Assembly (NCBI GenBank): GCA_902621725.1
Contig: CACNND010000007.1
Coordinates: 1-64,000, forward strand
Origin: an uncultured Alphaproteobacteria bacterium
Lineage (GTDB): Bacteria; Pseudomonadota; Alphaproteobacteria; HIMB59; GCA-002718135
Reading direction: 5' to 3'
DNA length: 64,000 nucleotides
Notes under the pieces: generated by a model
What the model saw: only the letters and a program-made list of their open reading frames with translations
What the model was told of the DNA's origin: nothing
The model's database searches: none
Part shown: piece by piece, positions 1 through 18,619 of the stretch
Layout of the letters: every line of letters begins with the position of its first letter
How positions within the stretch are numbered: the first letter of the stretch is position 1
Translations under genes and position numbers: made by a program

Positions 1-1433
1 ATCATTTTATGTTTTTTAGATATTAAAATATCTAAAAAATTTATAGTTGTTGAATTTCTTATATCTGATGTTTCAGGCTCACCTTTAAATGCAAATCCAA
101 TAATAAAGATTTTTAATAATTTTATATTTTTTTTCTTATTTCCATATAACTTAAATATTCTTTTATAAATCTGCATTGGAACATCTTCATTAAATTTTCT
201 AGCATTTAGAATTATACTTTTTGTTATATTATTTTTAATAAAATTATTATGCAAAATATAAGGATCTTTACTTAAGCAAGGACCGCCAACACCGGGTGAT
301 GGATATGCAATATCATTTCTATCATATCCTAAATTAACCTTTGAAATAATGTCATGTGCGTTAAGATTTAATTTTTCACAAAAAAGAGCAATCTGATTTG
401 CATATGCAAATTTCACATCTCTGTATGAATTATCAATTAATTTACATAATTCAGCTGCTTCAAGTGATCCAACATCTATAACAGTTTTTGAATATGTGTT
501 AAAAAAATTTATAGATATGTCTGTACTTTCTTTATCAAATCCTCCAATAATCTGAGGTAATTCAGATAACTCCTCTAAAGCTTTTCCTTCAATTGTTCGT
601 TCTGGACAGAATGAAATTTTAAAATCTTTACCAACTTCTAAGTTAGAATATTTCTGTAAAAGAGGAATAACTTTATTTCTTGTAAAACCAGTAGGAACTG
701 TAGATCTTAAAATTACAAGATCACCCTTTTTAATTTTAACTGCTATATTCGAAATAGCTTTTAACAAAATATTAGTTTGAGGTTTTTTAGTTTTTGTATC
801 TACTGGAGTTCCGACACATATTATATAAATATCAGCAATAAATTTATCTATATTAGATGTTACTCTGAAATTTTTATTTACATTTTTACTTAAATATTCA
901 TTTATATATCTTTCAAAAAAAGGAGATTGTTTATTTTTTATTTGAGTAATAGTATTAACATTATTATCATATCCAATAACATCTAAGTCATTTTCAGCCA
1001 AAATTAATGAGAGAGTCAAGCCTACATAGCCTAAACCAATTATTGATATTTTTTTATTTTTAATACTAATTTTAAAATCTTTTTTATCAAAAATAATATC
1101 AATTAATTCATGTTTTGAATTTAAAATTGGTATTAGTGAAATTTTTGAATTAATTGAGTTTAAGATTTTTGATTTAGGGTCAGTATCCAAAAAATATTTA
1201 GATGCTCGATTGTGAACATTTTCTATTTTATCACTTAGTGAAAAACCATTAATTAAAGCTCGTCTTATATCTCCATCAGTTACAACTTTTAAAAATTTTT
1301 TATTTTTTAAAACAACACATGCCTTATTTTGATTAAAATTAATAATTTTCAATGTGGTTAATAGAGAACTGTTATGTGGTACAATATTTTTATTTAATTG
1401 TATCTTATTTTTTTTTTTATTAAATTTTTTCAT
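1..1433 (-). CDS. CBS-pair / nucleotide-sugar dehydrogenase fusion (3' end cut by window edge)
   Basis: Open reading frame read directly from the reverse strand; ATG at 1433, no stop before the window edge, so the C-terminus is missing. Residues about 10-120 look like a CBS pair, with the TDGDIRRAL signature and a closing ELIDIIFD stretch, of the kind found in front of sugar-nucleotidyltransferases of the PtmE/LegF type. Residues from about 128 on are a UDP-glucose/UDP-ManNAc dehydrogenase-family protein: Rossmann GLGYVG at 133-138, CVGTPVD, the STVPTG segment, and GVGGPCLSKDP with the expected catalytic Cys at about 386. The likely reaction is two-step NAD-dependent oxidation of a UDP-hexose(amine) to the uronate in the cytoplasm. 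It overlaps the preceding formyltransferase stop by 14 nt, so it is probably translationally coupled. The fusion arrangement is unusual; the frame was checked codon by codon across the junction. Confidence 0.85.
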   Translation of the reverse strand, partial: MKKFNKKKNKIQLNKNIVPHNSSLLTTLKIINFNQNKACVVLKNKKFLKVVTDGDIRRALINGFSLSDKIENVHNRASKYFLDTDPKSKILNSINSKISLIPILNSKHELIDIIFDKKDFKISIKNKKISIIGLGYVGLTLSLILAENDLDVIGYDNNVNTITQIKNKQSPFFERYINEYLSKNVNKNFRVTSNIDKFIADIYIICVGTPVDTKTKKPQTNILLKAISNIAVKIKKGDLVILRSTVPTGFTRNKVIPLLQKYSNLEVGKDFKISFCPERTIEGKALEELSELPQIIGGFDKESTDISINFFNTYSKTVIDVGSLEAAELCKLIDNSYRDVKFAYANQIALFCEKLNLNAHDIISKVNLGYDRNDIAYPSPGVGGPCLSKDPYILHNNFIKNNITKSIILNARKFNEDVPMQIYKRIFKLYGNKKKNIKLLKIFIIGFAFKGEPETSDIRNSTTINFLDILISKKHKM

Positions 1434-2247
1434 ATTTCTCAAATATTATAAATCCATCCTTGCATTTAAATATTTTATTTTTCTCATAAATATTTGAAGG
1501 AATATTTTTTTTATATTTAACTTTATACAATTTAAAAGAATTATTATCAATAATTGCTTTAGCCGGTATTTGTGATCTTGAATAAAATGCTCTTACAAAT
1601 CTTTCGATATATTTGCCTTTCCAACTTTTAGATATCAAACCATTATTAGGTATTTTATTTTCATAAAAGTTAGATTTATTCTCATTTTGATATTTAAGTT
1701 TAAAGCTAGAATTTATTATTTTATTTAGGTTTTTAATAATTAAAATAGGAAGTCTTTGTAAAAGTTTTTTGTACAATGAAATACCTGTATCAATATTATC
1801 AATTTTAACTCTTACTTTAGATATAATTGGTCCCTGATCATACTTTATAGTTATTAAGTGTAATGTATAGTATGCAAACTTTTTATTATCTAGTATTGGC
1901 CAAGTAGTTGGTAAATTACCTCTATAAAAAGGTAAGTCAGCAGGATGAAAATTGTATAATTTATTTTGAAAAAATTTGATGAATTTCGAAGAAATTTTAT
2001 ATGGATATGAGAATGATAAAGCAAAGTCTGTTTTTATAATTAATATTTTGTTCTCTTTATCCATTCTTGATATACTTTTATTGTCAAAGTAATTTATTTT
2101 GTTTTTTTTACACAAATTTTGTATTTCTAAATTGCCTTGAGTTGTAATTATATTTAAAATATTTAATCTTACTTTTAATATTTCAATTGCAATTAAGAGT
2201 GGTTTATTAGCACCAAATAAAGTTACGCTAACATTATGTTTCTTCAT
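1420..2247 (-). CDS. Formyltransferase-family protein (probable sugar N-formyltransferase)
   Basis: 275 residues from ATG 2247; a TTG 12 nt upstream is a weaker start. The formyl-transferase core is visible as NFHPADLPFYRG (Asn about 99, His about 101) followed by YDQGPII with Asp about 137, the N-H-D triad of the methionyl-tRNA formyltransferase superfamily using 10-formyl-tetrahydrofolate. The C-terminal part does not look like a tRNA-binding domain. It overlaps the upstream perosamine-synthase-like aminotransferase by 14 nt. That pairing suggests formylation of the 4-amino group of a nucleotide-activated deoxysugar, as WbkC/VioF-type enzymes do. The substrate is inferred from context only. 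Confidence 0.75.
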   Translation of the reverse strand: MKKHNVSVTLFGANKPLLIAIEILKVRLNILNIITTQGNLEIQNLCKKNKINYFDNKSISRMDKENKILIIKTDFALSFSYPYKISSKFIKFFQNKLYNFHPADLPFYRGNLPTTWPILDNKKFAYYTLHLITIKYDQGPIISKVRVKIDNIDTGISLYKKLLQRLPILIIKNLNKIINSSFKLKYQNENKSNFYENKIPNNGLISKSWKGKYIERFVRAFYSRSQIPAKAIIDNNSFKLYKVKYKKNIPSNIYEKNKIFKCKDGFIIFEKYEKI

Positions 2248-3355
2248 TAGTTTTAACAAAATTTATAATTTCTTTTGCAACTCTTTTTTGATCAACATCG
2301 GACATTAAAACTGAAACCGGTATGTCTATGAAGGTATTATAATTATATATTGAGTTTTTTAAATCAACATCATTAAATTTATATTTATTATAATAATATG
2401 GCTGTGTAGAAATTGGTGGGAATGATAATCTTGTGTCTATAGATTGATCTCTTAAATGTTCAATTAATCTATTTCTTAACTTTTGTTCTACAGAAATTGA
2501 ATACATATACCATGTTGGCTTTGTACTGTATTCGGGAACAAATGGAGTTATGATATTATTATAATCTTTGAAAAGATTATTATAAAATTTGGCAATTTTT
2601 TGTTTTTGATTAAGTATATTTTCAATTTTTTTCAACTGCTCAATTCCTATTGCTGCGGTAATATCGGTCATTCTAAAATTATTTCCTAACATGGTATGAT
2701 TATACCTTCCCTCTTGTCCTTGATTTCTTATAATCCGTAATTTCTTTGCTAAATTATCATCATTAGTTGTTATTAATCCTCCTTCACCTGTTGTGAGATT
2801 TTTATTAGCAAAAAAACTAAATGAATGTGCCAATGCTTGTGACCCAACCTTATTATTTTTATAACTTGCTCCAAAAGACTCTGCGCTATCAGATACAAAA
2901 TGAATGTTCTTACTGTTACAAAGTTCTAAAATACTATCATAATCTACAGGTTGACCTTTTAAATCAACTGTCATAACTACTTTAGTCTTATTTGTTATTT
3001 TTTTTTTTATAAAATCAGCATCAATATTAAATGTTTTTCTATCATTATCTGCTAAAATAAGTTTAGCTGATCTATACTCTACCACATTTGCAGTCGATAT
3101 ATATGTTAGATTAGGAATTATAACTTCATCATCAGAATTAATTTCTAATGCAGTCATTAATGCGCTTAATGTAGATGTGCCATTATTCATTGCTATAGAA
3201 TTTTTAACTCCTAAATATTCTGAACAGAGTTTCTCAAATTCTTCAACTTTTTTTCCCATGCTTATCCAGCCTGATTTTATTAAATCATAGACTGCTTTTG
3301 CTTCTTCATTTCCTATCAAAGGCTGAGCTATAGGTATATTCTTTTTGTTTTTCAT
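2234..3355 (-). CDS. DegT/DnrJ/EryC1/StrS sugar aminotransferase, perosamine-synthase-like
   Basis: 373 residues, usual length for the family. PLP-binding features are visible: NNGTSTL near residue 58, the SDSAESFGA aspartate segment near 156, and the Schiff-base lysine in SFFANKNLTTGEGG at Lys185. The last motif resembles GDP-4-keto-6-deoxymannose 4-aminotransferases (Per/RfbE) more than PseC or ArnB, but substrate assignment from one motif is tentative. The reaction would be glutamate-dependent amination of a 4-keto sugar nucleotide in the cytoplasm. The ATG overlaps the stop of the upstream TIM-barrel gene by 4 nt, and a formyltransferase follows directly, suggesting an N-formylated 4-amino sugar as the end product. 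Confidence 0.85.
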   Translation of the reverse strand: MKNKKNIPIAQPLIGNEEAKAVYDLIKSGWISMGKKVEEFEKLCSEYLGVKNSIAMNNGTSTLSALMTALEINSDDEVIIPNLTYISTANVVEYRSAKLILADNDRKTFNIDADFIKKKITNKTKVVMTVDLKGQPVDYDSILELCNSKNIHFVSDSAESFGASYKNNKVGSQALAHSFSFFANKNLTTGEGGLITTNDDNLAKKLRIIRNQGQEGRYNHTMLGNNFRMTDITAAIGIEQLKKIENILNQKQKIAKFYNNLFKDYNNIITPFVPEYSTKPTWYMYSISVEQKLRNRLIEHLRDQSIDTRLSFPPISTQPYYYNKYKFNDVDLKNSIYNYNTFIDIPVSVLMSDVDQKRVAKEIINFVKTNEET

Positions 3356-4227
3356 ATATTATCTAATAAATTTATACATTTTTTGATGCTAGTGACACTT
3401 TCATTTCTCACTTCCAGACAAATTTTTCTTTCAGAATGATCTTGAGTTGTGGCTCCTTTAACTCTTTTAAGGGCTTTAATTTGCCAACTATTTTCGTTTA
3501 TTACCGTATGACTATCATTTATAGCATTATTTTCAGAAACATGAATTTCATAAATTCTGTCACTGAACATGTTTAAAATTTTATCAAATTCTTTATTTTT
3601 GTCTAGTTTAAAAAAATTACAAGAAATTTGTAAATGCCCTAAGTCAAGAAGGAGGCCAACATCATCAGGTAATTCTTTCATTAAATCATTAATTTGATCA
3701 AAAGTACAAAAAAGAGATCTTACTTCATTATTAAAAGGAAATAAGTTTTCAATAAGTATTTTAACATTTTTTTTCCTTGAATTTTGAATAATCTTATAAA
3801 TAAAATTTATACTATTCTCCAAAGATTTAATATATCCAATATTTTTGTTTTCAAAAACAAAATTTCCCTTTTTATCAGCATATGAATCTGAAAAATATCC
3901 AGCATGAATTCCGTAGATCTTTGAGTCAATAAAATTAGAAAAATTAATAGCTTTGTTGACTAAATTAATGCTTTTTTTTAAAATATATTTGTTTGATGTC
4001 GAAATATTTAATACAAAATCTTTTTTTGGTGAAGGGAAATAATTATGAAGTAAAAATTCAATTTTTTTTTCTTTATATATTTTAAAAATTTTTTTTAATT
4101 CTTCAATATTTTGGTATTTATGTGGTGCAGAAATTTCAATCTTATTTCCAAAATTTTTTTGACAGTTTGTAATGGCTTCTTTTATTGATGTATTTGGATA
4201 TAAACTAGAAGAAATAAATGTTTTCAC
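3352..4227 (-). CDS. Sugar phosphate isomerase/epimerase-like TIM barrel (AP endonuclease 2 superfamily)
   Basis: 291 residues from a GTG at 4227. Metal-ligand-type motifs typical of xylose isomerase-like barrels are present in order: IYGIHAGYF (about 185 nt into the second third), ILIENLFPF, LLLDLGHL, EIHVSENN and CLEVRN. No signal peptide or membrane segment. It sits between a NeuB-family synthase and an aminotransferase, so an isomerase or epimerase step on a sugar intermediate is the simplest idea. A non-sugar role cannot be excluded. The exact substrate is not recognisable from sequence. Confidence 0.65.
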   Translation of the reverse strand: MKTFISSSLYPNTSIKEAITNCQKNFGNKIEISAPHKYQNIEELKKIFKIYKEKKIEFLLHNYFPSPKKDFVLNISTSNKYILKKSINLVNKAINFSNFIDSKIYGIHAGYFSDSYADKKGNFVFENKNIGYIKSLENSINFIYKIIQNSRKKNVKILIENLFPFNNEVRSLFCTFDQINDLMKELPDDVGLLLDLGHLQISCNFFKLDKNKEFDKILNMFSDRIYEIHVSENNAINDSHTVINENSWQIKALKRVKGATTQDHSERKICLEVRNESVTSIKKCINLLDNI

Positions 4228-4274
4228 TTAGCTATATTCCTTTTTTACTTTTTTGAAATTTTAAACATTCAAGT

Positions 4275-5312
4275 TTAATTTACATCAGTTAGTTTCAGTT
4301 GATCAAATTTTTTCTTTTGTTTATTTAATTTTTTACCAACTAACAATGATAAGTTACTTGAATCTAATCCATTACCTGGGCGCATTAAAGTAAGGTCATT
4401 TTTTTTAATGATTTTATATTTACTTAGATCTTTTGATGCAACTATACTTCTTCTTAGTGCATGACTTGTATTTTCTTCCTCATTTGACATTGATTTCATA
4501 CTACTACCAATTGAGTCAATTGCTTCTCTAATATTACGTATCAGATCTCTAAGTTCATTTGGCTCAATTGATGCTTTTTGATCAATGCCTTCTAAATTTC
4601 TAGAAAGAGTAAAGTGTTTTTCAATCACTTTAGCGCCAAAAACAGTTGCCACTATTGAAGCTGTATTATTCACTGTATGATCTGAAAAACCTACGGGCAA
4701 ATTGAATAATGTCTTATATGTTTTTAAAACATTTAAATTTGCATTGTTTATCTTTGATGGGTAATTAGAAGTACATTGCAGAAGAATTAATTCTGACTTT
4801 GTTTTTTTAAATATATTTACAGCTTCTATAACTTCACTGATATTCCCCATTCCTGTTGATAATAAAATAGGTAATCCTGATTTAGCTGCATAATTTAAAA
4901 AAGGATAATTTGTGAGATTACAAGAACTAATCTTTAACGCTTTTAATTTACACTTAATGAGTGCTTTGAGACTTTCTATTTCAAAAGGTGTTGATAAAAA
5001 ATCTATATCAACTTTAGATGCAAATTTTTTTAAAGAAATAAGCTGATCTGTAGATACCTCACAACTCTTTATTATTTCTCTTTGTGATTTTTTTTGATGA
5101 CTAAGTGATTTTTTTTGATAGTTTGCCTTTATTGAATAAGGAGCAATGTATTTATCTGCAATAAAACTCTGAAATTTTACACAATTTGCTCCATTATCTT
5201 TTGCTGATATAATCATTTCCCGAGCTAGTTCCATATCACCATTATGATTAATTCCAATTTCAGCAATTACATATGGATATTTTCTAGAAGTTATTTTTTT
5301 AATAAAGGACAT
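4275..5312 (-). CDS. N-acetylneuraminate/legionaminate synthase family protein (NeuB-like)
   Basis: 345 residues, normal for the family. The N-terminus has IAEIGINHNGDMELA followed by CVKFQSF, the PEP- and sugar-binding TIM-barrel opening. Later come LSTGMGN, LLQCTSNYP and VGFSDHT, and the C-terminal part carries an SAF/antifreeze-like domain (RRSIVASKDL, about residue 282 on). The enzyme condenses phosphoenolpyruvate with a 6-carbon N-acyl-amino sugar to a nine-carbon nonulosonate. The EIGINHNG opening is closer to NeuB/LegI/SpsE than to PseI. A second, PseI-like synthase lies at 12678-13709, so two different nonulosonates may be made. Confidence 0.88.
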   Translation of the reverse strand: MSFIKKITSRKYPYVIAEIGINHNGDMELAREMIISAKDNGANCVKFQSFIADKYIAPYSIKANYQKKSLSHQKKSQREIIKSCEVSTDQLISLKKFASKVDIDFLSTPFEIESLKALIKCKLKALKISSCNLTNYPFLNYAAKSGLPILLSTGMGNISEVIEAVNIFKKTKSELILLQCTSNYPSKINNANLNVLKTYKTLFNLPVGFSDHTVNNTASIVATVFGAKVIEKHFTLSRNLEGIDQKASIEPNELRDLIRNIREAIDSIGSSMKSMSNEEENTSHALRRSIVASKDLSKYKIIKKNDLTLMRPGNGLDSSNLSLLVGKKLNKQKKKFDQLKLTDVN

Positions 5313-5403: not shown

Positions 5404-6372
5404 TTAATTATAAATTTTGTCAACAAGGTTATGAACAGTCATAGATTTTTTATTATCTTTATTCAAAATACTTACAGTTGTAATCATAAAAAAATTTGCA
5501 AATAAAAAGGATAAAATATTTCCAAAAAATTTAATTTTGAATAATCTATCAATTAAAATACGAAGCTTTAGATTTGAATCTGAATCATATGACAAATCAT
5601 TAAAATCAGCAATAAGTCTAGACTGGGTAATATTTTTAAATTTAAAATTATTAGATTTAAGTTTTTTATAGTGAAAAAAAGGTGTCCTCAAAATCAAAAA
5701 AGAACCATCACATAATTTGTTTACATGTTTGCTTCTTATATTTTTGGGTATTTTATTGAAAAAAAAAATACTAAATCTTTTAAATAAAAAAAACTTAATA
5801 AAATTTGGCAGCCAATGCAAAAACCAAGTTTGTGTATGGCTGTCGTAGGGATTAAATCTATGAGGCACTTCATTGTAAAGCATGCCTCCGCTTTTGAGAC
5901 ATCTACTTTGCTCATTATAATAGGTATCTATAAGATTATTAGGTATATGCTCTAAAACTTGGCAGCTAATAACAACATCAAAATAACTATCTTCAAATGG
6001 TAAGCTCGATCCATTTGTTCTAAAAAAAGGTTTTTCGGGTTTGTTATCAATAATTTTTAAAATTCTATTAATACTATCAACATCATCATTTACATTTACA
6101 CCATATATATTTTTAAAACCTAAAGTATATAAATAAAAAATCATCCTTCCTGAACCACATCCATGATCACAAATTCTTAATTTGTAATTATTATTTGCAT
6201 AGGCAATTAATGTTTTTTGTAGAGTTTTAAAAATTAAAGGTGGATTATTACTAAGATTATTTGATATTTTAACGAATTTATTCCAAGATTCTAAAATATT
6301 TTCATCACTACCTTTTTTTGCACTGTTGACAAGCTCTGTATAAGAATGTTTAAAATTTTTCCAATCATCCAT
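5404..6372 (-). CDS. Class I SAM-dependent methyltransferase
   Basis: 322 residues. Motif I is CDHGCGSGRM (about residues 83-92), followed by an acidic strand end and DVVISCQVLEHIPN, a standard SAM-binding fold for small-molecule methyltransferases. The C-terminal third is hydrophobic and aromatic (around residues 190-215 and 285-305), possibly a membrane-associated patch. The ATG begins only four bases after the encoded CCA of tRNA-fMet, leaving no room for a Shine-Dalgarno sequence outside the tRNA itself. Its target is unknown; the location suggests methylation of a glycan or lipid intermediate. Confidence 0.7.
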   Translation of the reverse strand: MDDWKNFKHSYTELVNSAKKGSDENILESWNKFVKISNNLSNNPPLIFKTLQKTLIAYANNNYKLRICDHGCGSGRMIFYLYTLGFKNIYGVNVNDDVDSINRILKIIDNKPEKPFFRTNGSSLPFEDSYFDVVISCQVLEHIPNNLIDTYYNEQSRCLKSGGMLYNEVPHRFNPYDSHTQTWFLHWLPNFIKFFLFKRFSIFFFNKIPKNIRSKHVNKLCDGSFLILRTPFFHYKKLKSNNFKFKNITQSRLIADFNDLSYDSDSNLKLRILIDRLFKIKFFGNILSFLFANFFMITTVSILNKDNKKSMTVHNLVDKIYN

Positions 6373-6376
6373 AATT

Positions 6377-6453
<77 letters not shown>

Positions 6454-6466
6454 ATATTTGTTACAT

Positions 6467-6495
6467 TTATTAAATAATTGTATATATAATTACAA
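6467..6495 (-). promoter_or_regulatory. Possible sigma-70 promoter of tRNA-fMet
   Basis: On the reverse strand TTGTAA (6490-6495) and TAATAA (6467-6472) are separated by 17 bases, with 13 bases from the -10 box to the mature tRNA 5' end. Spacing fits a transcription start just upstream of the tRNA. In such AT-rich DNA chance matches are common, so this is weak evidence. Confidence 0.3.
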
Positions 6496-6548
6496 CTATA
6501 AATTTAAAATTTATAATTTAATTTATTGCTAAACGTATTTTAGTCAAA

Positions 6549-7565
6549 ATGATTTATAAAAAACTTTCTTTTTTTATATTTTCTTTTTTAATTATTTTAG
6601 CTTGTTTTAATGGCGTCTTAAATCAAAGTTCAATTTTAGGAAAAAATATTGATTTACCAAATATTACTGAGCAAATGGTGAATTATATGAATGAAAGAAA
6701 CATAGATTGGAAAAACATAGAATATTTAGAAAATAGAGACTTTAAACAAAGATTTAAATATAGATGGCCATTTAAAACTTTTGAAAAAAAATTTTATGAC
6801 TTTAGCTATAATATTGATAATCTTACCAATAAACATGCAGCTCTTATCTACTATTCAATTATAATTTTCTTAGGTTTTATTTTTACATTAAAAAGTTCAG
6901 TAATTTTATTAAATATAGAAAGAGAAAATTTTAAATACTTTTTCTTAATTCTTTTTTTATGTTTATATTTATTTATTGAAATAGTTTCTAGTATGTCTGA
7001 AACATTTAGTTATGTAGAATTCTTATGTATCTCAATCTGTATATTTGGTTCTATTAAAAAAAATTTATATATTTTTTATATAGGTCTAGTTTTATCGATA
7101 TTTAATAGAGAGAGTGGCATAGCATATGGTATTTTATATCCTTTAATAAATTACAAATCTTTAAAAACGTATATTACCATTATTATAGTAATTTCAGGTC
7201 CATTTATTTTTGCTTTATTAAATTATGATATAATTGAATTTTTTCCTTATTTTATTTTTTTTGGAGGTTTAGAAGAAAGACCAACCTTCATGAATTTAAA
7301 ATCAATTTTTTTATTAAAAAAAGGAGAGTTAATAAACTCTTTATTAATATATTTAATTTTTTTTGTTCCTTTATTTTATATGAATATTAAAAATTATTTT
7401 AATTTAAATTTGATTTGGCCTTTATCGGTTCTATTTGTTTTGTTTTTTATTATTATAATTGGAAGTTTTTTTGGAAACTTTAGAGTATTATTATTATTTA
7501 TACCTTTATATCTTATTAGCTTTACTTTGTTCTTAAATAATTCAAATTTATTTAATAAAACCTGA
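6549..7565 (+). CDS. Polytopic membrane protein of unknown function
   Basis: 338 residues, not recognised. An N-terminal hydrophobic segment (about 5-25) is followed by a charged aromatic loop of about 70 residues, probably outside the membrane, then seven or eight more hydrophobic segments to the C-terminus. This layout (one helix, large loop, helix bundle) occurs in GT-C glycosyltransferases and polysaccharide polymerases, but I see no diagnostic motif. It lies alone on the plus strand between two minus-strand glycan operons and its last 18 nt overlap the 3' end of the convergent gene. A similar-sized protein is at 14802-15953. Confidence 0.7.
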   Translation: MIYKKLSFFIFSFLIILACFNGVLNQSSILGKNIDLPNITEQMVNYMNERNIDWKNIEYLENRDFKQRFKYRWPFKTFEKKFYDFSYNIDNLTNKHAALIYYSIIIFLGFIFTLKSSVILLNIERENFKYFFLILFLCLYLFIEIVSSMSETFSYVEFLCISICIFGSIKKNLYIFYIGLVLSIFNRESGIAYGILYPLINYKSLKTYITIIIVISGPFIFALLNYDIIEFFPYFIFFGGLEERPTFMNLKSIFLLKKGELINSLLIYLIFFVPLFYMNIKNYFNLNLIWPLSVLFVLFFIIIIGSFFGNFRVLLLFIPLYLISFTLFLNNSNLFNKT

Positions 7566-9341
7566 CAAATCAAATTTTTCTGAAACAAAATCTTTTTTTA
7601 ATCTATCTAAATTTTCTATAAGGTTGATATTATCTTTAATTTTAATTTTATTTAGTTTCGTGAAATTATATAAATTCCTATTAGTTTCATATAAAATTAT
7701 TTTTTTGTTAGATCCCAATAGCCACGTTAGCACACTCTGTGAAGAGTACAAAGCTATCACATCAGCCATATCCAGAATGTATCTTAAATCAAAATCATCA
7801 ATTACTAAAGAATCCAATAATTTTAGATTATTAAATTTTAATTTATCTAAATACCTTGTTGCTGGGTACAATTTGATCAATATTGTGTAATCAGGGTATT
7901 TTGATTTAAGATCTTTGTAAATATCTTCAGTTACCCTTTTCATTAAGTAATCATTTAAAGAATATGGTGTGATCCAATTATTTTTATCAACATCAATTAA
8001 AAATATTAAAGTTTTATTTGTCAGCCCAATTTTGAAATATTTTTTTAGAATTAATTTTTTTAATAAGTTATTATTTTTTCTGAAATAAATAGAGGGAAAG
8101 GAAATTTTAAAAACTTTATGTTTCTTATTTAAATCTAATTTTAAATCTCTTGTTGAATATTTCCAATTATAAAAACCAAAATTAGAAACTATCATACCAT
8201 TAATATTCCCAAGATCTTTACTAATCTCAGATAAACCATGAATTAAACCATGCTCAAAAGAGTAGACACTCACATTTTTTTTCATTAGCATTATACCATA
8301 AAATCTCTCAGATACAGAATCTAAGTAATTAGTTAATAAAATTTTTGACGAAAAATATTCTAATTTTTTGGATATTGACCTAGATATATAATTATAATTA
8401 TGGTCAATTAAATTTAGCGAATGTAATATTTTTTTTGAAAAGATATAAATTAATGAATTGTAATTACTAAAATGAAGGTCTGAAAAATTTTTATTTATAT
8501 AAAGATTTAAATTGGTCATTAGAAATTTAAGATTTGATTCTAAAAAAACATACTGATCATCATCAGAAATTTTAATGTTGTTTAAAAAATTTAAATTATC
8601 AAAATGAATGGAGTATTTATTTTTTATAAGATTAAAAAATGCATTTTCTAATGTTTCACAAGAATTTAAAATTATTATTTTTTTTTTAAAAAGAATATTA
8701 GTTAACTTATTAATTTTAAAATTTCGATAGATTTTGAAAGAAAATAAATTTAAATTATTTGAAGTTATTGACAATAATTTTTCTATAAAGGTAAAACTTT
8801 TCTTTTCGATTTCCTTATCTAATTTATCTTTTATTGAATTTTCATTATTTATTTTAATTTTTTTTATTTTATAATTTTTTTCATAAAGTGCAATATCGTA
8901 ATATAAATTATCAAAACGTCCAAAAGACAAATTAATACCTGTATTAAGATCACTTTTAGATCCCACAACATATAAATCATATTTCTTGTTACAATAGTCA
9001 ATTATTGTTGTTTTATAAACTAAAGGAAATAGTGTCCTGTATATTTGATTTATATAAATAATTTCTAAATTTAATTTATTTATAGATTTAAATTTGAGTT
9101 TAGCCAATGTACCAGCTGTAAATTTGGTAAGATTAATATTTATTTGATCCAATCTTGCAAGTAATTCAGAAGATAAATATTTCTCTGGATTTATAATTTT
9201 AATTCTGCTTTCGAACTCTAATATTTTTTCTATAAGGCCTTCAGACGTTGTGAGAATTATATCTTCATTTATATCTAAATATTTATTTTTTATTAATTCA
9301 TTAAATGAAAAAAAATCATCTATTAAAAAAGCTTTAATCAT
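7548..9341 (-). CDS. Putative surface-carbohydrate transferase (GT-B-like C-terminal half)
   Basis: 597 residues from ATG 9341 (a TTG lies 21 nt upstream). The N-terminal half is lysine/asparagine-rich without a clear motif. The C-terminal half has FEHGLIHGLSE (middle), a return motif ILIKLYPATRYLD, and DMADVIALYSSQSVLTWLL followed by KKIILYE. This pattern resembles GT-B nucleotide-sugar transferases and the LIC12162-type putative surface polysaccharide transferases. No signal peptide or transmembrane helix is obvious. It is the last gene of the operon starting at 13709 and overlaps the aldo/keto reductase by 8 nt. Function as a sugar transferase acting on a nonulosonate is inference. Confidence 0.55.
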   Translation of the reverse strand: MIKAFLIDDFFSFNELIKNKYLDINEDIILTTSEGLIEKILEFESRIKIINPEKYLSSELLARLDQININLTKFTAGTLAKLKFKSINKLNLEIIYINQIYRTLFPLVYKTTIIDYCNKKYDLYVVGSKSDLNTGINLSFGRFDNLYYDIALYEKNYKIKKIKINNENSIKDKLDKEIEKKSFTFIEKLLSITSNNLNLFSFKIYRNFKINKLTNILFKKKIIILNSCETLENAFFNLIKNKYSIHFDNLNFLNNIKISDDDQYVFLESNLKFLMTNLNLYINKNFSDLHFSNYNSLIYIFSKKILHSLNLIDHNYNYISRSISKKLEYFSSKILLTNYLDSVSERFYGIMLMKKNVSVYSFEHGLIHGLSEISKDLGNINGMIVSNFGFYNWKYSTRDLKLDLNKKHKVFKISFPSIYFRKNNNLLKKLILKKYFKIGLTNKTLIFLIDVDKNNWITPYSLNDYLMKRVTEDIYKDLKSKYPDYTILIKLYPATRYLDKLKFNNLKLLDSLVIDDFDLRYILDMADVIALYSSQSVLTWLLGSNKKIILYETNRNLYNFTKLNKIKIKDNINLIENLDRLKKDFVSEKFDLSGFIK

Positions 9342-10685: not shown

Positions 10686-11369
10686 TTACTTAAATTTAAA
10701 AAATTTTTTAGCTAATTCCCAATCTTCTTTATTATCTATATCAACTGATTTATGTTGAGGTAATATAAATGGCATATGATTTGTTAACTTTGATATATTG
10801 CTTAAAGGAACTTTTTTTAAGTTAATTCCATAAAAACTAGCTGTCTCAAAATAATGCTCATCGAAAGAAAAACTGGGCTTTAAAAGTTTGTTTTTATTTA
10901 CCGGAATTAGTTTATTATTTTTTATTTTATAAGCCCATTCAATTGGGGCTGGGAATTTTGATACTGACATAATTGATTTAACATTTTTCCTACTAAATAA
11001 TAGAGAGGCTTTTCTTAGATCGGAAAACGAAATCAAAACTGAAGTGGGAAATATTATCCAAACTTCATCGAAGTAAACATTTATTTTTCCATATTCTTTT
11101 AAAACAAAGTTAATGACATCATTAATTACTGAATGATCTGTTGATATAGCTGATGGTCTCATAAAATCGACTTTTATGTTATTTTTTTTTAATAAATTTT
11201 TAATTTTATCTGAATCAGTAGAAATATGAATTTTTTTAAATATACCAGATTTTAAGACTTGCTTGTAAACCTTAAATATAATTGGCTCATCATAGAATTT
11301 TTTTATATTTTTATTTTTTATTCTTTTTGATCCACCTCTAGCTGGTATTATAGCTAATCTTTTATTCAT
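10686..11369 (-). CDS. Acylneuraminate cytidylyltransferase family protein (PseF/NeuA-like)
   Basis: 227 residues, right size for the catalytic domain alone. N-terminal LAIIPARGGSKRIKNKNI is the CTP-binding signature, followed by HISTDSDKI and a hydrophobic core; DEHYFETASFYG near the C-terminal third matches PseF-like enzymes. It would couple CTP to a nonulosonic acid, giving the CMP-sugar used by glycosyltransferases. Only one such gene is in the window although there are two NeuB-family synthases. Confidence 0.87.
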   Translation of the reverse strand: MNKRLAIIPARGGSKRIKNKNIKKFYDEPIIFKVYKQVLKSGIFKKIHISTDSDKIKNLLKKNNIKVDFMRPSAISTDHSVINDVINFVLKEYGKINVYFDEVWIIFPTSVLISFSDLRKASLLFSRKNVKSIMSVSKFPAPIEWAYKIKNNKLIPVNKNKLLKPSFSFDEHYFETASFYGINLKKVPLSNISKLTNHMPFILPQHKSVDIDNKEDWELAKKFFKFK

Positions 11370-11370
11370 T

Positions 11371-12672
11371 TTAGTTCAGTCTTTTAAAACTACTTGAACT
11401 TATTTCAGTATCGATCAAATCTTTAGGATTAATATTTGCCTTAATAGAATTACTTATTTTTTTAAATATGTAATCTATATTTTTTAAATATTTTAAAACA
11501 AATTCTTTTTTATGTTCGGTAGAAATAAATATAAAATTTGTTGCTAGGTATTTCTTTTTTAACATTTCTTGAGTTAGAAATGTCTTATAAATAAGATGGT
11601 TTTCTAAAAATATGAATGAAGGTATAGCATCTAAACCTTGAATTTTTATTTTTATACTATTTTTCTTTGCTATTTCTGCCCATTTTTTTTTAATAAATCT
11701 TCCCATTTTAGAAATTTTTTCCCATGATTTATTCTTCTTCATTTCCGTTAATGTCTGTAAAGCGGCTGTATACCCAACTCTTTCTGTCCAAAAGGTGCTA
11801 CTTATAAAAGATTGTTCAGATTTTATCATGATATTTTTTTTTCCTACTATTGTGTTTATTGCATATCCATTACCTAACGCTTTGCCAAACATAGCTAAAT
11901 CTGGAATAACATTATATTTAAGATGTAAGCCGCCAAAATATTCTCTAAAACCTGATGTACATTCATCAAATATTAAAATTATATTATTTTTGTTACATAA
12001 ATTTCTAACCTCTCTTAAAAATTTTACATTTATTGACACACTTCTAGCTACTTCCATTATGACAATTCCAATATTTCTATATTTGATAAGTTTTTTAAAA
12101 GAATTTAAATCATTGTAATTAAATGGATGAACACTATCTTTTAAATAATTTGGAATTCCTTTATAACCTATTCCTTTTAGTAAATGTTCAGAAAGATTAT
12201 CATTTTTACCTATGTTAGCAGCCATATACCAGTCATGCCACCCATGATAACCACATATTGCTATATTTTTTTTGTTAACAGAACATCTTGCAATTCTAAT
12301 AGCTATAGCATTAGCCTCAGCTCCTGTTCTCGCATACTTAACCATTCCGGCCCATTTATGAATTTTTAACATTTCCTTTGCTAGTTTTGATTCTTCAGGG
12401 CAATTAAAAGTGGCCATATTACTATTTCTAATATTCGCAATAACAGCATTATCAATATTTTTGTTACAATAACCTAAAGTATTTGTTCCAACAGAAAAAA
12501 TAAAATCTGTGTATTTTACATTATCTAAATCCCAAACAAATATTTTATTAGCTTTTGAAAAATAAGTTGGCCATTTATTTGGCAAATATAAATCAGGATG
12601 TTTAGATAATAAAAGATTTCCATTTGGAATTATTTTTTTTGAAGTTTCCCATAATTTTTTTCCCTTATTCAT
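11371..12672 (-). CDS. Class III PLP-dependent aminotransferase, glutamate-1-semialdehyde aminomutase-like
   Basis: 433 residues. Fold type I class III features: ARTGAEANAIAIRIAR (about 115-129), the GYHGWHDWY segment (141-149), DECTSGFR (236-243) and the Schiff-base lysine in MFGKALGNGYA at Lys264. It resembles HemL, but its position between a PseI-like synthase and a CMP-transferase gene argues for amination or isomerisation of a sugar-derived aldehyde rather than haem synthesis. Similar class III enzymes are known in nonulosonate clusters, with uncertain roles. Two bases separate it from the next gene. Confidence 0.8.
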   Translation of the reverse strand: MNKGKKLWETSKKIIPNGNLLLSKHPDLYLPNKWPTYFSKANKIFVWDLDNVKYTDFIFSVGTNTLGYCNKNIDNAVIANIRNSNMATFNCPEESKLAKEMLKIHKWAGMVKYARTGAEANAIAIRIARCSVNKKNIAICGYHGWHDWYMAANIGKNDNLSEHLLKGIGYKGIPNYLKDSVHPFNYNDLNSFKKLIKYRNIGIVIMEVARSVSINVKFLREVRNLCNKNNIILIFDECTSGFREYFGGLHLKYNVIPDLAMFGKALGNGYAINTIVGKKNIMIKSEQSFISSTFWTERVGYTAALQTLTEMKKNKSWEKISKMGRFIKKKWAEIAKKNSIKIKIQGLDAIPSFIFLENHLIYKTFLTQEMLKKKYLATNFIFISTEHKKEFVLKYLKNIDYIFKKISNSIKANINPKDLIDTEISSSSFKRLN

Positions 12673-12677
12673 AAATT

Positions 12678-13709
12678 TTACTTAACATGCTTTTTTTTAA
12701 TAGGTGTATTTTTCTTAAAATTTTTTAATACCTTTTTTCCTAACATATAATTAAAATGTTTGGGTAGTTCACCTAAGTTTGGCCTTATAATTTTAATATT
12801 TTTTTTATTAATTTTATCACCTTTTTTAATATCTTTAATTACATATATTGATCTTCTATATTTTAAAGATTCGATTTCATTATTTGTATATCCATATTTT
12901 ATTCCACCCATAGATTGAGCTACTCTTTTTGATTCTTTTATTAGATTTTTAAATTCTTGATAATCAAGTGAAAATTTAGAATCAACAGCATTACTATTTT
13001 TATCAGGAGTTATATGTTTTTCTATTATTGTTGCTCCAAGTGCAATGGCAGCCAGTGATACTCCAATTCCAGGTGTATGGTCGGATAAACCAACAGGACA
13101 ATTAAATTCTTTAATCATATCCGGAATCGTTAAAAGATTAGCATCTTTTGGATCAGCGGGATAAGAACTTGTACATTTTAATATAGAGTAATCTTTGCAG
13201 CCATGTTTAGATAGTGTATTTATAGCATCATATATTTCTGATTTAGATGCCATACCTGTTGATAAAATAACTGGTTTTTTTGTAGACCCTATTTTTTCAA
13301 TTAAAGGTATATGTGTTATTTCAAAAGAAGCTACTTTGTATGCTGGGCAATTACAATTCTCTAGAAAATCAACTGCAGTTTCATCAAATGGAGAACTAAA
13401 GCAGTTAATTTTTATTTTTTTAGCATATTTGAAAATCTTATTATGCCATTCCCAAGGAGTATAAGCTTTTGAATATAAATCATATAAATTTTGCCCTCCC
13501 CAATATTTGTGATTCTGGTTAATTTTAAATTCTTTTCTTTTAGAATTAACTGTTAAAGTATCTGGTTTATATGTTTGTAACTTTACATAAGACAAACCAA
13601 TTTTTTTAGAATTATCTAAAATTGAAAGTGCTGTTTTCAGGGATTGATTATGATTTCCAGAAATCTCAGCAATAATTATAGGATTAAGTTTTGATTTTTT
13701 TAAAAACAT
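12678..13709 (-). CDS. pseI: Pseudaminic acid synthase-like NeuB-family enzyme
   Basis: 343 residues. IIAEISGNHNQSLKTAL (about 11-27) and YVKLQTYKPDTLT match the PseI subgroup rather than sialic acid synthase. LSTGMAS, LKCTSSYPADP and VGLSDHTPG follow, then an SAF domain (YRRSIYVIKDIKKGD) at the C-terminus. It condenses phosphoenolpyruvate with a 2,4-diacetamido-trideoxyhexose to pseudaminic acid if the assignment is right. First gene of the minus-strand operon 13709 to 7548. The upstream pathway genes (PseB, PseC, PseG) are not in this window. Confidence 0.82.
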   Translation of the reverse strand: MFLKKSKLNPIIIAEISGNHNQSLKTALSILDNSKKIGLSYVKLQTYKPDTLTVNSKRKEFKINQNHKYWGGQNLYDLYSKAYTPWEWHNKIFKYAKKIKINCFSSPFDETAVDFLENCNCPAYKVASFEITHIPLIEKIGSTKKPVILSTGMASKSEIYDAINTLSKHGCKDYSILKCTSSYPADPKDANLLTIPDMIKEFNCPVGLSDHTPGIGVSLAAIALGATIIEKHITPDKNSNAVDSKFSLDYQEFKNLIKESKRVAQSMGGIKYGYTNNEIESLKYRRSIYVIKDIKKGDKINKKNIKIIRPNLGELPKHFNYMLGKKVLKNFKKNTPIKKKHVK

Positions 13710-13765: not shown

Positions 13766-14640
13766 GTGCAAAAGATAAAAAATAAATTATTTAAAAATAA
13801 AGATGGTGTTTATGTGGTGAAAAAGATGCCAACTTTAGATCAAATTAATAAATTATATGTTAGAGAATATTATCAAAAAAGACCCTCTAAATCATATAAA
13901 CTTAAATACAGCAAAAGTGATTTAAAATTTAATGAGTTAGACTATGCATTATCAGAGTCATTTATAAAAAATAAAAAGAAGATATTGGATGTTGGATGTG
14001 GTGAAGGGTATTTATTAAATTTTTTTTTAAAAAAAAATGTTATGGAGTAGATATAACAGATTATGGAATAAAAAATCATAATGCACATATTTTAAATAAG
14101 ATAATATTTCAAAAAAAAGATATCAATAATAACAATTTTTTTGAAAATGAAAAATTTGACGTTATTTTTTTAATTAATGTTGCAGAACATGTTGTTGATT
14201 ATAATAAATTATTCAAAAATATTAATAACAAATTAAATAAAAATGGAATATTCATAATAAAAGTTCCCAATGAATTTGATCTTGTTCATACTTGGTATAT
14301 TCGACAAAATAAAATACCAAAAGAAGAATTAGAAATTTTTAATCCATTACATCACTTAAATTATTTTTCAAAAAGCTCTTTAATTAATTCTGTAACAAAT
14401 AATATGAATGTTAAAACAATTAAAACATATGGCGATTTTCCAATTGAAATATTTATGCTTAATAAGGAGACAAATTTTTATAAGAAAAAAAATTTTGGAA
14501 AAACTGCACACAACATAAGGGTTGAGCTTAGTAATCTATTGTACAAAAAGAAAAAAATAAGTGATCTTTTAAATTTTTATGAAGCAAGTCTTAATGTGGG
14601 TATTGGAAGGTCAATTACTGGTGTTTTTAAAAAGGAATAA
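13766..14640 (+). CDS. SAM-dependent methyltransferase interrupted by a homopolymer frameshift
   Basis: GTG start at 13766. The first frame encodes about 90 residues with motif I KILDVGCGEGYLL, then runs through T9A9 (about 14020-14037) and stops at 14050. One frame over, translation continues without a stop from the end of that tract to TAA at 14640, with YGVDITDYG, VIFLINVAEHVVDY and a GIFIIKVPNE strand, exactly what should follow motif I. Restoring the frame needs a -1 slip or one extra base, giving 291 residues. Either slippage (ribosome or polymerase), a fresh pseudogene, or a sequence error explains it. The stop lies one base from the 3' end of the opposite-strand tRNA-Met. Confidence 0.72.
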
Positions 14641-14641
14641 T

Positions 14642-14718
14642 TGGTAGCGGAGGAGGGATTTGAACCCCCGACATCACGAATATGAGCCGTGCGCTCTGAC
14701 CAACTGAGCTACTCCGCC
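14642..14718 (-). tRNA. tRNA-Met (elongator, anticodon CAT)
   Basis: 77-nt cloverleaf on the reverse strand with encoded CCA and a fully paired GGCGGAG/CTCCGCT-type acceptor stem, unlike the initiator. The anticodon loop is CTCATAT on a CACGG/TCGTG stem; the T arm GGGGGTTCAAATCCC is typical of alphaproteobacterial elongator tRNA-Met. A tRNA-Ile with lysidine-modified CAT is the alternative but fits the acceptor stem less well. Confidence 0.93.
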
Positions 14719-14801
14719 ATTGTGATAATTAATAATATATTATACATCTATTATATATATTTTAAAAATATTAATTCAAAATTGATTAAAATAAAAATAA
14801 A

Positions 14802-15953
14802 ATGATAAATTTCAATTTTTTACAAAAAAACTTAACACTATACTCTTTAATTATTTTTATCTTTATTTGCATTGGGTGGACAATACATAATCTACAAAAT
14901 ATAAATTTAAATGAAAGTAGTGTAATAAATAATGAACATTATATCTACCCAATAATTAGTTATTATGCTCATGTTATATTAGAAAAATATATTGGTAAAA
15001 TTGGAGTTATAATATTTGGTAGTCTAATATTTCCGTTCCTAACTTTTTTGCTACTAATACAGATTTTTAATAGATTAATCGATAAAATTTGGTCTGTTTC
15101 ATTAGCTTTGCTTTCCGTTGCAGTATATGGTGATTATCCATTTAGAGAATTTCTAATAAAATTAATAAATTTTGAATTTATAAATAATTTTGATGGAGTG
15201 CGTACTCCACTGTTATTTAATTTTCCAATTCCCTCTTTTTCAACTTTTATTTTTCTAATTTGTTTTTATTTTGCTACTGAAGCAAAATATATAAATTTTT
15301 TTAAAATTTCACTGATAACTATTTGTGCCACAATTTTAATTTATGTTAATGCAATTGATGCAATTTTTTTTATTTGTTTTTGGATTGTTTTTATATTTAT
15401 TAAATTATTTAGACAGAAATATAATTTATTGAAAATATTAAATATTTACTTTGTTCAATTTACAATAATATCCTTTGGTTTAGTTTTTCTTTTATATAAT
15501 AATGATTTTTCATTTAAGGGTTTCGAAGAGTATAGAATTTCATTTTATTATTTATTTTTTTATTTAGTCATTCCAATAATTTTGATAATATTATTATCAA
15601 TTATTCAAAGAATAGATTTTTATGAAATTCTATTTAAGTTTTCATTTATTTATATTTTTATGGGTGTGGAAATATTATTAATTTTAATTGAATATTTCAA
15701 TTTAGTTTCCATAAATTTAGATATTATGTCTTCGAGGATAAGTCAGTTTTTTCTGCATTCTTTATACTATGTTCCTGTAATATATTATTCAAGAAATTCA
15801 ACTGTCGGAAAAAAATTTGGATTAGAAAGTCATAATATCTCAAAAATACTTGCAAAAATATTTTATTATTTTTTTACAAAATATAATTATTTTTATTTAG
15901 TAATTATAAATTTTTTTATTTTAATTTATTTAATACCTTGGAATAATTACTAA
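14802..15953 (+). CDS. Polytopic membrane protein of unknown function
   Basis: 383 residues, not recognised. Around ten hydrophobic segments: one near residues 12-30, a short polar loop with EHYIYPIISYY, then alternating helices to the C-terminus, which ends in a hydrophobic segment. The general plan is that of a GT-C or polymerase-type integral protein of the glycan machinery. It precedes a zinc dehydrogenase gene by one base, so it heads the plus-strand operon 14802-20170. Very AT-rich, phenylalanine/isoleucine-loaded like the protein at 6549. Confidence 0.7.
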   Translation: MINFNFLQKNLTLYSLIIFIFICIGWTIHNLQNINLNESSVINNEHYIYPIISYYAHVILEKYIGKIGVIIFGSLIFPFLTFLLLIQIFNRLIDKIWSVSLALLSVAVYGDYPFREFLIKLINFEFINNFDGVRTPLLFNFPIPSFSTFIFLICFYFATEAKYINFFKISLITICATILIYVNAIDAIFFICFWIVFIFIKLFRQKYNLLKILNIYFVQFTIISFGLVFLLYNNDFSFKGFEEYRISFYYLFFYLVIPIILIILLSIIQRIDFYEILFKFSFIYIFMGVEILLILIEYFNLVSINLDIMSSRISQFFLHSLYYVPVIYYSRNSTVGKKFGLESHNISKILAKIFYYFFTKYNYFYLVIINFFILIYLIPWNNY

Positions 15954-15954
15954 T

Positions 15955-17022
15955 ATGCAAAAAAAAATCTTTAGAAAAGCTCTTATTTGGAATGGGAAAA
16001 AAAATGTAAAAGTTGTAGATAAACTATTTCCAAAAATATCTGAAAACGAAGCTATATTGAAAGTAGAAACATGTTGTTTGTGTGGATCAGATTTAAGGAC
16101 ATACATGCATGGAAACAAAAGAGTTTCCAAAGGCTCAATTCTTGGTCATGAAATTTCAGGTAAAATAATTAAAGTTGGTAAAAAAGTTAAAAAGTTTTCA
16201 AAAGGAGATAATATTTCAATAGGTGCAGATATTCCATGTGGTAAATGTAAATTTTGTCTAAATGGACAAGTAAATAAATGTGAAATAAATTTAGCAATTG
16301 GTTATCAATTAGAGGGTGGTTTTACAAACTATATGAAACTAAATAATTTAGTTTTAAAAAATGGACCAATTGCTAAAACAGGAAAATTTAATGATTTTGA
16401 TAAAATAGCATTAGCAGAACCATTAGCATGTTGCATAAATGGATTTGAAAAATGCAATATAACTAATATAAATACTGTGACAATTTTTGGAGCTGGTGCG
16501 ATTGGTCAACTTTTAGGAAAATTATCTTTTTATTTTGGAGCTAAAAAAATAATATTAATTGATAAAAATCAAAAAAGATTAAACATTGCAAAAAAGATTA
16601 AAAGTGCAAATTTTTTTGTTAATTCTAATATAGATATTAAAAGAAAAATAATGAAAATTACAAAACAAGAAGGTTCTGATTTAATTTTTACTGCTTGTTC
16701 TGACATAAAAACTCATAAAAAAGCTTTCGAAATTATCTCAAAAGGTGGAACTATAAATTTTTTTGGAGGATTGCCAATAAATGCGGATCCAATTAAAATA
16801 TACTCAAATAATATTCATTATAATGAACTGCATATAACTGGATCTCATGGATCTACGCCAGCACAGCATTTAAAAGCACTTAAATTGATTATAAACAAAA
16901 AAATAAATTTAAATGGAATTATAACTCATAAATTTGATTTGAATGACTCAGTTAAAGCATTTAAGGTGGCTCTAAAAGGTGAAGCTCTTAAGATAGCAAT
17001 AAAACCAAATGAAATAATATAA
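15955..17022 (+). CDS. Zinc-binding alcohol dehydrogenase (MDR family)
   Basis: 355 residues. The GroES-like N-terminal half has the catalytic zinc ligands in CCLCGSD and GHEISG and the structural zinc loop CGKCKFCLNGQVNKC (about residues 97-111). The Rossmann half has VTIFGAGAIGQLLGKL (about 173-188). Closest in layout to sorbitol, threonine or L-idonate dehydrogenases. Interconversion of a keto sugar or sugar phosphate with its polyol is a plausible role. One base after the membrane protein gene and directly abutting the Rpe-like gene, so the three are co-transcribed. Confidence 0.85.
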   Translation: MQKKIFRKALIWNGKKNVKVVDKLFPKISENEAILKVETCCLCGSDLRTYMHGNKRVSKGSILGHEISGKIIKVGKKVKKFSKGDNISIGADIPCGKCKFCLNGQVNKCEINLAIGYQLEGGFTNYMKLNNLVLKNGPIAKTGKFNDFDKIALAEPLACCINGFEKCNITNINTVTIFGAGAIGQLLGKLSFYFGAKKIILIDKNQKRLNIAKKIKSANFFVNSNIDIKRKIMKITKQEGSDLIFTACSDIKTHKKAFEIISKGGTINFFGGLPINADPIKIYSNNIHYNELHITGSHGSTPAQHLKALKLIINKKINLNGIITHKFDLNDSVKAFKVALKGEALKIAIKPNEII

Positions 17023-17706
17023 ATGTATAAAAATATTTACTTATCAGCATCTATTATGTGTGTAAATTGGCTAGATACTGCCACTGATTTTAAAAATTTA
17101 AGTAAAATTAATGAACTTGATTATTATCATTATGATGTAGTTGATGGTATTTTTGCTCCAGACTTTACAATGGGATCATCAATAATTAACAATATTAATA
17201 ATAATATTTCTATACCCTCTGATTATCACTTAATGGTTGATGAACCAAAAAGAATCTTTGAAATGTTTAATATTAAAAAATCAGATATGCTAACTATTCA
17301 CCAAGAGTCGTCACGTAATTTACATAGAGACTTAGTAAGCATAAGAAAACTTGGGGCAAAAGTTGGTGTTGCATTATCCCCAAGCACCACTCTAGATGTT
17401 TTGGAATATATTATTGAAGATATAGATCTAGTAATTTTAATGACTGTAAACCCAGGGTTTAAGGGTCAGAAGTTTATTCCTCAAGTACTTAATAAAATAA
17501 ATAAATTAAATATAATGAAAAAAAATAATAATTTGACATTTAAAATCTCTGTAGATGGTAATGTTAACGAAAGTACTATACCTGAAATAGTATCAGCAGG
17601 CGCAGATGTTCTTGTGCTGGGATCAAGTGGGTTATTTATTGAAGATAAATCAATGATTGAATCTATAGAAAAAATAAAATTTGCAATTGATAAAGGTTTA
17701 AAATAA
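17023..17706 (+). CDS. Ribulose-phosphate 3-epimerase-like protein (specialised paralogue)
   Basis: 227 residues, TIM barrel. SASIMC at the N-terminus, YHYDVVDG, YHLMVDEP, MTVNPGFKGQKF and SVDGN retain the metal-binding His/Asp set and the phosphate loop of the Rpe family. The sequence differs from the canonical Rpe at 50936-51583 in this window (for example SIMCVNW in place of SILSVD), so it is more likely an epimerase for another ketose phosphate, such as the allulose-6-phosphate type. Neighbour genes support a role in making an unusual glycan building block. Confidence 0.82.
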   Translation: MYKNIYLSASIMCVNWLDTATDFKNLSKINELDYYHYDVVDGIFAPDFTMGSSIINNINNNISIPSDYHLMVDEPKRIFEMFNIKKSDMLTIHQESSRNLHRDLVSIRKLGAKVGVALSPSTTLDVLEYIIEDIDLVILMTVNPGFKGQKFIPQVLNKINKLNIMKKNNNLTFKISVDGNVNESTIPEIVSAGADVLVLGSSGLFIEDKSMIESIEKIKFAIDKGLK

Positions 17707-17710
17707 TTCG

Positions 17711-18613: not shown

Positions 18614-18619
18614 TATAAA

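Follow-up and report, generated by a model that had tools for sequence, protein, structure and literature searches.

The window analysed here (64,000 nt in full) begins where contig C7 begins, in the 82%-complete genome of a marine bacterium. At this edge, the minus strand holds a single reading frame (positions 3-1433, with no stop throughout) that encodes a CBS pair, a linker of about 12 residues and then a nucleotide-sugar dehydrogenase (NSD); we refer to this architecture as CBS-NSD. Because the contig ends at window base 1, the window protein lacks approximately 85 C-terminal residues; complete CBS-NSD homologues are 554-597 residues long. An earlier note on this DNA had reported an uninterrupted frame from CBS into a UDP-sugar dehydrogenase, with GLGYVG at residues 133-138 and the catalytic cysteine at about 386, and all of these lie where it placed them.

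The fusion gene is the last member before the contig edge of a co-directional cluster that runs NeuB, TIM barrel protein, DegT aminotransferase, formyltransferase, CBS-NSD (Table 1), and the final two genes overlap by 14 bases. The aminotransferase is 60% identical to the copy in the cluster of genome G417, and the TIM barrel protein is of a type that is joined to NeuB in two other genomes.

Table 1. Features of the CBS-NSD locus (window positions; residue numbers refer to the fusion protein)
Feature	Positions	Strand	Evidence or remark
CBS-NSD fusion gene	3..1433	-	477 codons present, ATG at 1433, 3' end lost at contig edge
Divergent CBS pair, residues 6-120; CBS1 signature KVVTDGDIRR (T52, D55)	1074..1418	-	profile match
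GLGYVG NAD-binding loop, residues 133-138	1020..1037	-	kept except for conservative changes (fusion alignment)
UDPG_MGDP_dh_N domain, residues 127-305	519..1055	-	PF03721, 2.5e-43
UDPG_MGDP_dh central domain, residues 325-416	186..461	-	PF00984, 2.6e-20
Catalytic cysteine codon, Cys386 in GGPCLSKD	276..278	-	invariant in seven fusions
Sugar formyltransferase, overlaps fusion gene	1420..2259	-	PF00551, 2.4e-11; ArnA/Fmt-like
DegT/PseC/LegC-like sugar aminotransferase, without CBS	2234..3355	-	PF01041, 7.5e-108; PseC model 1.3e-85, below cut-off
Xylose-isomerase-like TIM barrel protein	3352..4227	-	PF01261, 3.3e-16
NeuB nonulosonic acid synthase	4275..5312	-	PF03102, 1.8e-79; TIGR03569 7.9e-108, below cut-off

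Some NeuB clusters have no CBS, among them a second cluster of the window (10686-13709), which consists of a PseF-like CMP-synthase, a glutamate-1-semialdehyde-type aminotransferase and a NeuB sharing just 30% identity with that of the first cluster. Elsewhere in the window, SUF-type iron-sulphur genes adjoin the glycan island (window:23588-28200), as they do at L039:8433-13451 and L042:8854-13466; island contents differ among the three genomes, which suggests that the island beside the SUF genes occupies a fixed, hypervariable insertion place.

The two parts of the fusion protein

Judged by its domains and motifs, the window protein is an intact-looking NAD-dependent UDP-sugar 6-dehydrogenase with an N-terminal PtmE-type CBS pair. 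Residues E278, K331, N335, C386 and D390 are invariant in the alignment of seven fusions. Of the C-terminal UDP-binding domain, the start alone is present (residues 444-475; 18.5 bits against a cut-off of 30), since the contig ends there, and the domain is complete in the homologues. The general model TIGR03026 scores above its cut-off. The nearest solved structures by sequence are two UDP-N-acetylhexosamine 6-dehydrogenases, the UDP-ManNAcA dehydrogenase of P. horikoshii (4r16) and Cap5O of S. aureus (3ojl), which belong to the same three-domain dehydrogenase fold family, although the matches span only the NSD part of the window protein and the specific equivalog models are not attained. The UDP-N-acetyl-D-mannosamine dehydrogenase equivalogs score 213 bits against 750 (NF040825) and 195 against 459 (NF008286); the window protein is incomplete at its C-terminus, yet complete homologues miss the same cut-offs. 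For the models UDPMaNacDH, WecC and TviB the window protein is likewise far under the cut-off. Because no specific model attains its cut-off, we infer the substrate only in general terms, as probably a UDP-N-acetylhexosamine-like sugar.

The CBS pair is divergent. The earlier note had proposed a domain search as its check; for the window protein alone, the Pfam CBS model reaches 14.7 bits where its cut-off is 24 (E 0.039), which is only suggestive by itself and ambiguous as a refutation, whereas custom HMMs and homologues are positive. Two of the fusion homologues, L005 and L007, pass the Pfam cut-off (30.1 and 35.4 bits), and the CBS profile matches solved CBS pairs (e.g., 2yzq, 1.4e-17). From related genomes, we built one HMM of the CBS parts of six CBS-nucleotidyltransferases (PtmE-CBS) and another of those of nine KdsD isomerases (KdsD-CBS). 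For the window N-terminus, PtmE-CBS yields 75.8 bits and KdsD-CBS 20.8. As controls, the PtmE-CBS HMM gives 70.1 bits for the whole window ORF, 4.2 for the best of 100 other window ORFs and at most 10.2 for 2000 shuffled versions of the N-terminus. A tree built from 73 CBS pairs separates those of KdsD and of stand-alone proteins from those on nucleotidyltransferases (NTPase), NSD, DegT, GHMP and NeuB with support 100/99; the window CBS pair lies on the nucleotidyltransferase side, inside which most forks are unresolved. A KdsD-type origin is ruled out by these scores and this tree, and on the same grounds the CBS pair is of the PtmE-type family. Neither a SIS domain nor a KdsD-clade CBS is present in the window protein (Pfam, HMMs and CBS tree), and Pfam finds no NTP_transferase domain (PF00483) in it.

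The earlier note had likened the module to those of PtmE/LegF-type nucleotidyltransferases, and the PtmE half of that assignment agrees with both HMM and tree. Within the PtmE/LegF pair, CBS is known only from the PtmE-type enzyme. The LegF half falls away, as LegF itself is a CMP-synthase and a homologue of NeuA (PMC6137143).

The [S/T]xxD signature of CBS1 (T52 to D55 in the window protein) is kept in 7/7 aligned fusions, and TD or SD is present in 68 of the 77 CBS modules checked. In other CBS proteins, this signature touches the ribose and phosphate of nucleotides. A structure prediction from a three-row alignment has a mean pLDDT of 44.7 and gives the CBS part without confidence.

Known enzymes besides these dehydrogenases resemble the fusion in part. 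The PtmE-type CBS-NTP_transferase (sugar-nucleotide transferase) of legionaminic-type pathways shares the CBS family, its N-terminal position, a similar length and the setting in nonulosonate clusters, but has PF00483 as its catalytic domain instead of a dehydrogenase. The arabinose-5-phosphate isomerases KdsD/KpsF/GutQ (SIS-CBS) also place a CBS pair, with a TDGDLRR motif, on an ulosonic acid pathway enzyme; theirs, however, is C-terminal and falls on the opposite side of the 100/99 split. IMP dehydrogenase, likewise an NAD-dependent dehydrogenase, contains a CBS pair, although there it is inserted in a TIM barrel, a catalytic fold unrelated to NSD.

Distribution, NeuB linkage and origin of the fusion

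Seven further full-length CBS-NSD proteins were found in about 925 alphaproteobacterial and other Pseudomonadota genomes, making eight with the window; the queries were the window protein and, after that, alignments of the fusions. Within the window's order, the fusion occurs in 4/162 genomes (G000, which is that of the window, G050, G077 and G106). The class sample of 385 genomes adds G417, G270 and G412, and the family of G270 adds G908 (among 16 genomes), so that four of the genomes lie outside the order, in three other families of the class. There was no additional case in a phylum sample of 399 genomes, none in 48 genomes of another class and no further one in the families of G417 and G412; the large genome searches scored the best few candidates per genome, and rare cases may escape them. 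Searches of 72,556 plasmids and 50,697 phage records detected no fusion, and one scan of IMG/VR viral contigs by pattern yielded only a CBS-less dehydrogenase. Plasmid matches with about 80% coverage were rejected as fusions, being low-identity extensions of ordinary dehydrogenases. This patchy distribution is as expected for glycan islands. The combination was unfamiliar to the earlier note; its homologues are indeed few, and our literature searches found no description of it within the searchable papers. As far as those papers go, CBS-NSD is a real, rare and new domain combination within known kinds, and not a new kind of system.

NeuB adjoins CBS-NSD in 8/8 genomes, with G908 as the eighth. 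In the other seven loci, NeuB lies within 6 kb (7/7), while only 5 of 33 CBS-less NSD genes from comparable stretches have one within 5 kb (Fisher p 4e-5). The distances were hand-counted from a table and some stretches stop short of 5 kb from the gene; the p value is a guide only, as the genes are related and islands cluster, which overstates independence. Part of the NeuB association is shared ancestry and island co-location. A NeuA-type CMP-sugar synthase is present in 7/8 clusters, the downstream part of the window cluster being cut off; clusters of relatives may additionally hold a nucleotide-sugar SDR.

The clusters fall into two types. Those of type A (window, G417 and G106) contain the TIM barrel protein, and two of the three contain DegT. 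In G106 and G417 an SDR follows the dehydrogenase, and the two SDRs are 54% identical. A related dehydrogenase-SDR pair occurs without CBS or NeuB in, for example, G149, G222, G391 and a Maribacter phage; in the phage (L089:5998-8262), it adjoins a topoisomerase gene. Type B (G077, G050, G270 and G412, plus G908 by gene order) has a longer CBS region and a different NeuB subfamily, which is 47-54% identical to the G077 copy and 25-32% to the window NeuB.

The dehydrogenase tree separates groups A (100/98) and B (100/97), and places inside group A a CBS-less dehydrogenase that is 54% identical (G012), for which loss of CBS is the simplest reading. A clade of the seven fusions plus G012 is compatible with the data (p 0.25 and 0.39), and so is a single CBS clade (p 0.195); the trees therefore admit either a single origin with one later loss or two origins. 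The fusions as a clade without G012 are rejected (p 0.0006). The contig of G012 (C20, L042) has ends that resemble mutually inverted copies (226-5294 and 14233-18935), which look like those of chimeric amplification of single-cell DNA, and gene order in these parts is doubtful.

The same CBS module on other enzymes

Other carriers were found by scanning with the CBS profile alone. PtmE-type CBS pairs precede nucleotidyltransferases in about 30 sampled cases. In addition, there are two CBS-DegT aminotransferases (L186:11127-12554 in G125 and L187:5113-6561 in G032; Pfam CBS 33 and 37 bits, DegT >400 bits), two CBS-GHMP-type sugar kinases adjoining NeuB (L188:7569-8942 in G119 and L189:8589-9935 in G134), and a triple fusion CBS-NeuB-TIM barrel of 753 aa (L185:6366-8627 in G066). 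Every one of the CBS-kinase, CBS-DegT, CBS-NeuB and CBS-NSD genes lies in a NeuB cluster. One PtmE-type CBS gene per NeuB cluster is usual in our small sample of context stretches, though this is not a rule. G077, G417 and G270 hold CBS-NSD plus a separate CBS-nucleotidyltransferase; in the 82%-complete window genome, the CBS profile scan found no CBS-nucleotidyltransferase.

Beside the CBS-kinase of L188 lies a NeuB-SAF-TIM barrel fusion (5705-7624), and the NeuB/TIM barrel fusions therefore tie the TIM barrel protein of the window to the NeuB step. A supposed SIS-CBS-NTPase in G485 was dropped: its long frame runs over a NeuD-like gene read in a different frame, and the protein actually encoded is probably an ordinary CBS-nucleotidyltransferase.

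Possible function of the CBS pair

We consider it likely, with a probability of roughly 0.6, that the CBS pair on this dehydrogenase is a transferable allosteric sensor, which would place one enzyme of a nonulosonic acid cluster under nucleotide or end-product control. The CBS pair would sense a pathway signal, either a nucleotide or an activated sugar, and binding of the ligand would alter dehydrogenase activity and so tie flux to the signal. Candidate ligands are adenine nucleotides, or CMP, CTP and CMP-sugars. Adenine nucleotides are the classical CBS ligands, and the cytidine compounds are candidates because the nonulosonate cluster is the common factor of the CBS carriers. CBS-NSD may be under the nucleotide control that the earlier note suggested, through an adenosine or other nucleotide ligand. 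Two points count against a sensor: CBS2 of the window protein is without a clear [S/T]xxD signature, and G012 shows that the enzyme can exist without CBS. A wider proposal, which we hold only tentatively, is that the PtmE-type CBS acts as a transferable sensor of nonulosonate clusters in general, present as one copy per bearing cluster on the enzyme that governs entry, be it a nucleotidyltransferase, a dehydrogenase, an aminotransferase, a kinase or NeuB, and reading a signal shared by all, for example the CMP-activated end product.

The same observations might be read in other ways. The earlier note had raised the possibility that the module is the leftover of a lost nucleotidyltransferase; in this case, island recombination would have fused the 5' part of a CBS-nucleotidyltransferase gene onto a dehydrogenase gene, leaving a functionless vestige. 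The descent from the nucleotidyltransferase type is borne out by HMM and tree, and a vestige would also fit the absence of a detected CBS-nucleotidyltransferase from the window genome, the existence of the close CBS-less relative and the greater divergence of the CBS pair than of the dehydrogenase part (21-34% identity to the window, against 35-47% for the whole fusion proteins, in those measured). Loss of function, however, is disfavoured by the eight divergent fusions, which retain both CBS and the link to NeuB. The pair is full, with the CBS1 signature kept in all aligned fusions; three genomes hold the fusion alongside a separate CBS-nucleotidyltransferase; and in NeuB clusters three more enzyme types carry the module. 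Retention in divergent fusions whose islands are streamlined or exchanged horizontally, together with the other carriers, therefore fits a used, transferable part better than debris, and we regard a vestige as unlikely.

Similarly improbable, in our view, is that the CBS pair serves assembly, either dimerising the dehydrogenase or holding it with cluster enzymes such as NeuB or DegT. CBS pairs commonly dimerise, and a module found on different enzymes of the same cluster kind would suit docking; yet docking by itself needs no nucleotide signature, and TD or SD is widely kept, while the usual single CBS gene per cluster means that no cognate CBS partner is encoded there. An assembly error or frameshift as the source of the continuous frame was rejected as having next to no probability: the gene does lie at the contig end of an incomplete genome, but the same architecture is complete on other contigs of seven other genomes.

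Few studies address how bacteria control the synthesis of sialic-acid-like sugars, and to our knowledge the role of the CBS pair in PtmE-type enzymes is not established. At least five unrelated catalytic domains carry related modules in clusters of this kind, which provides a comparative handle. If the signal is common to them, the module alone should suffice to read it, and the effect of the signal should be measurable on enzymes with good assays, such as a UDP-sugar dehydrogenase with NADH as the readout.

CBS pairs of the KdsD side also occur alone. Stand-alone proteins of about 145 aa (L034:1520-1942, L191, L192, L193, L194 and L195) are encoded directly 3' of a KdsA-like synthase gene and near KdsB-like genes, and their CBS groups with KdsD, which suggests a detached control subunit of a Kdo-like pathway. 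G106 has an extra stand-alone CBS of this side, in a Kdo-like block that neighbours its CBS-NSD cluster.
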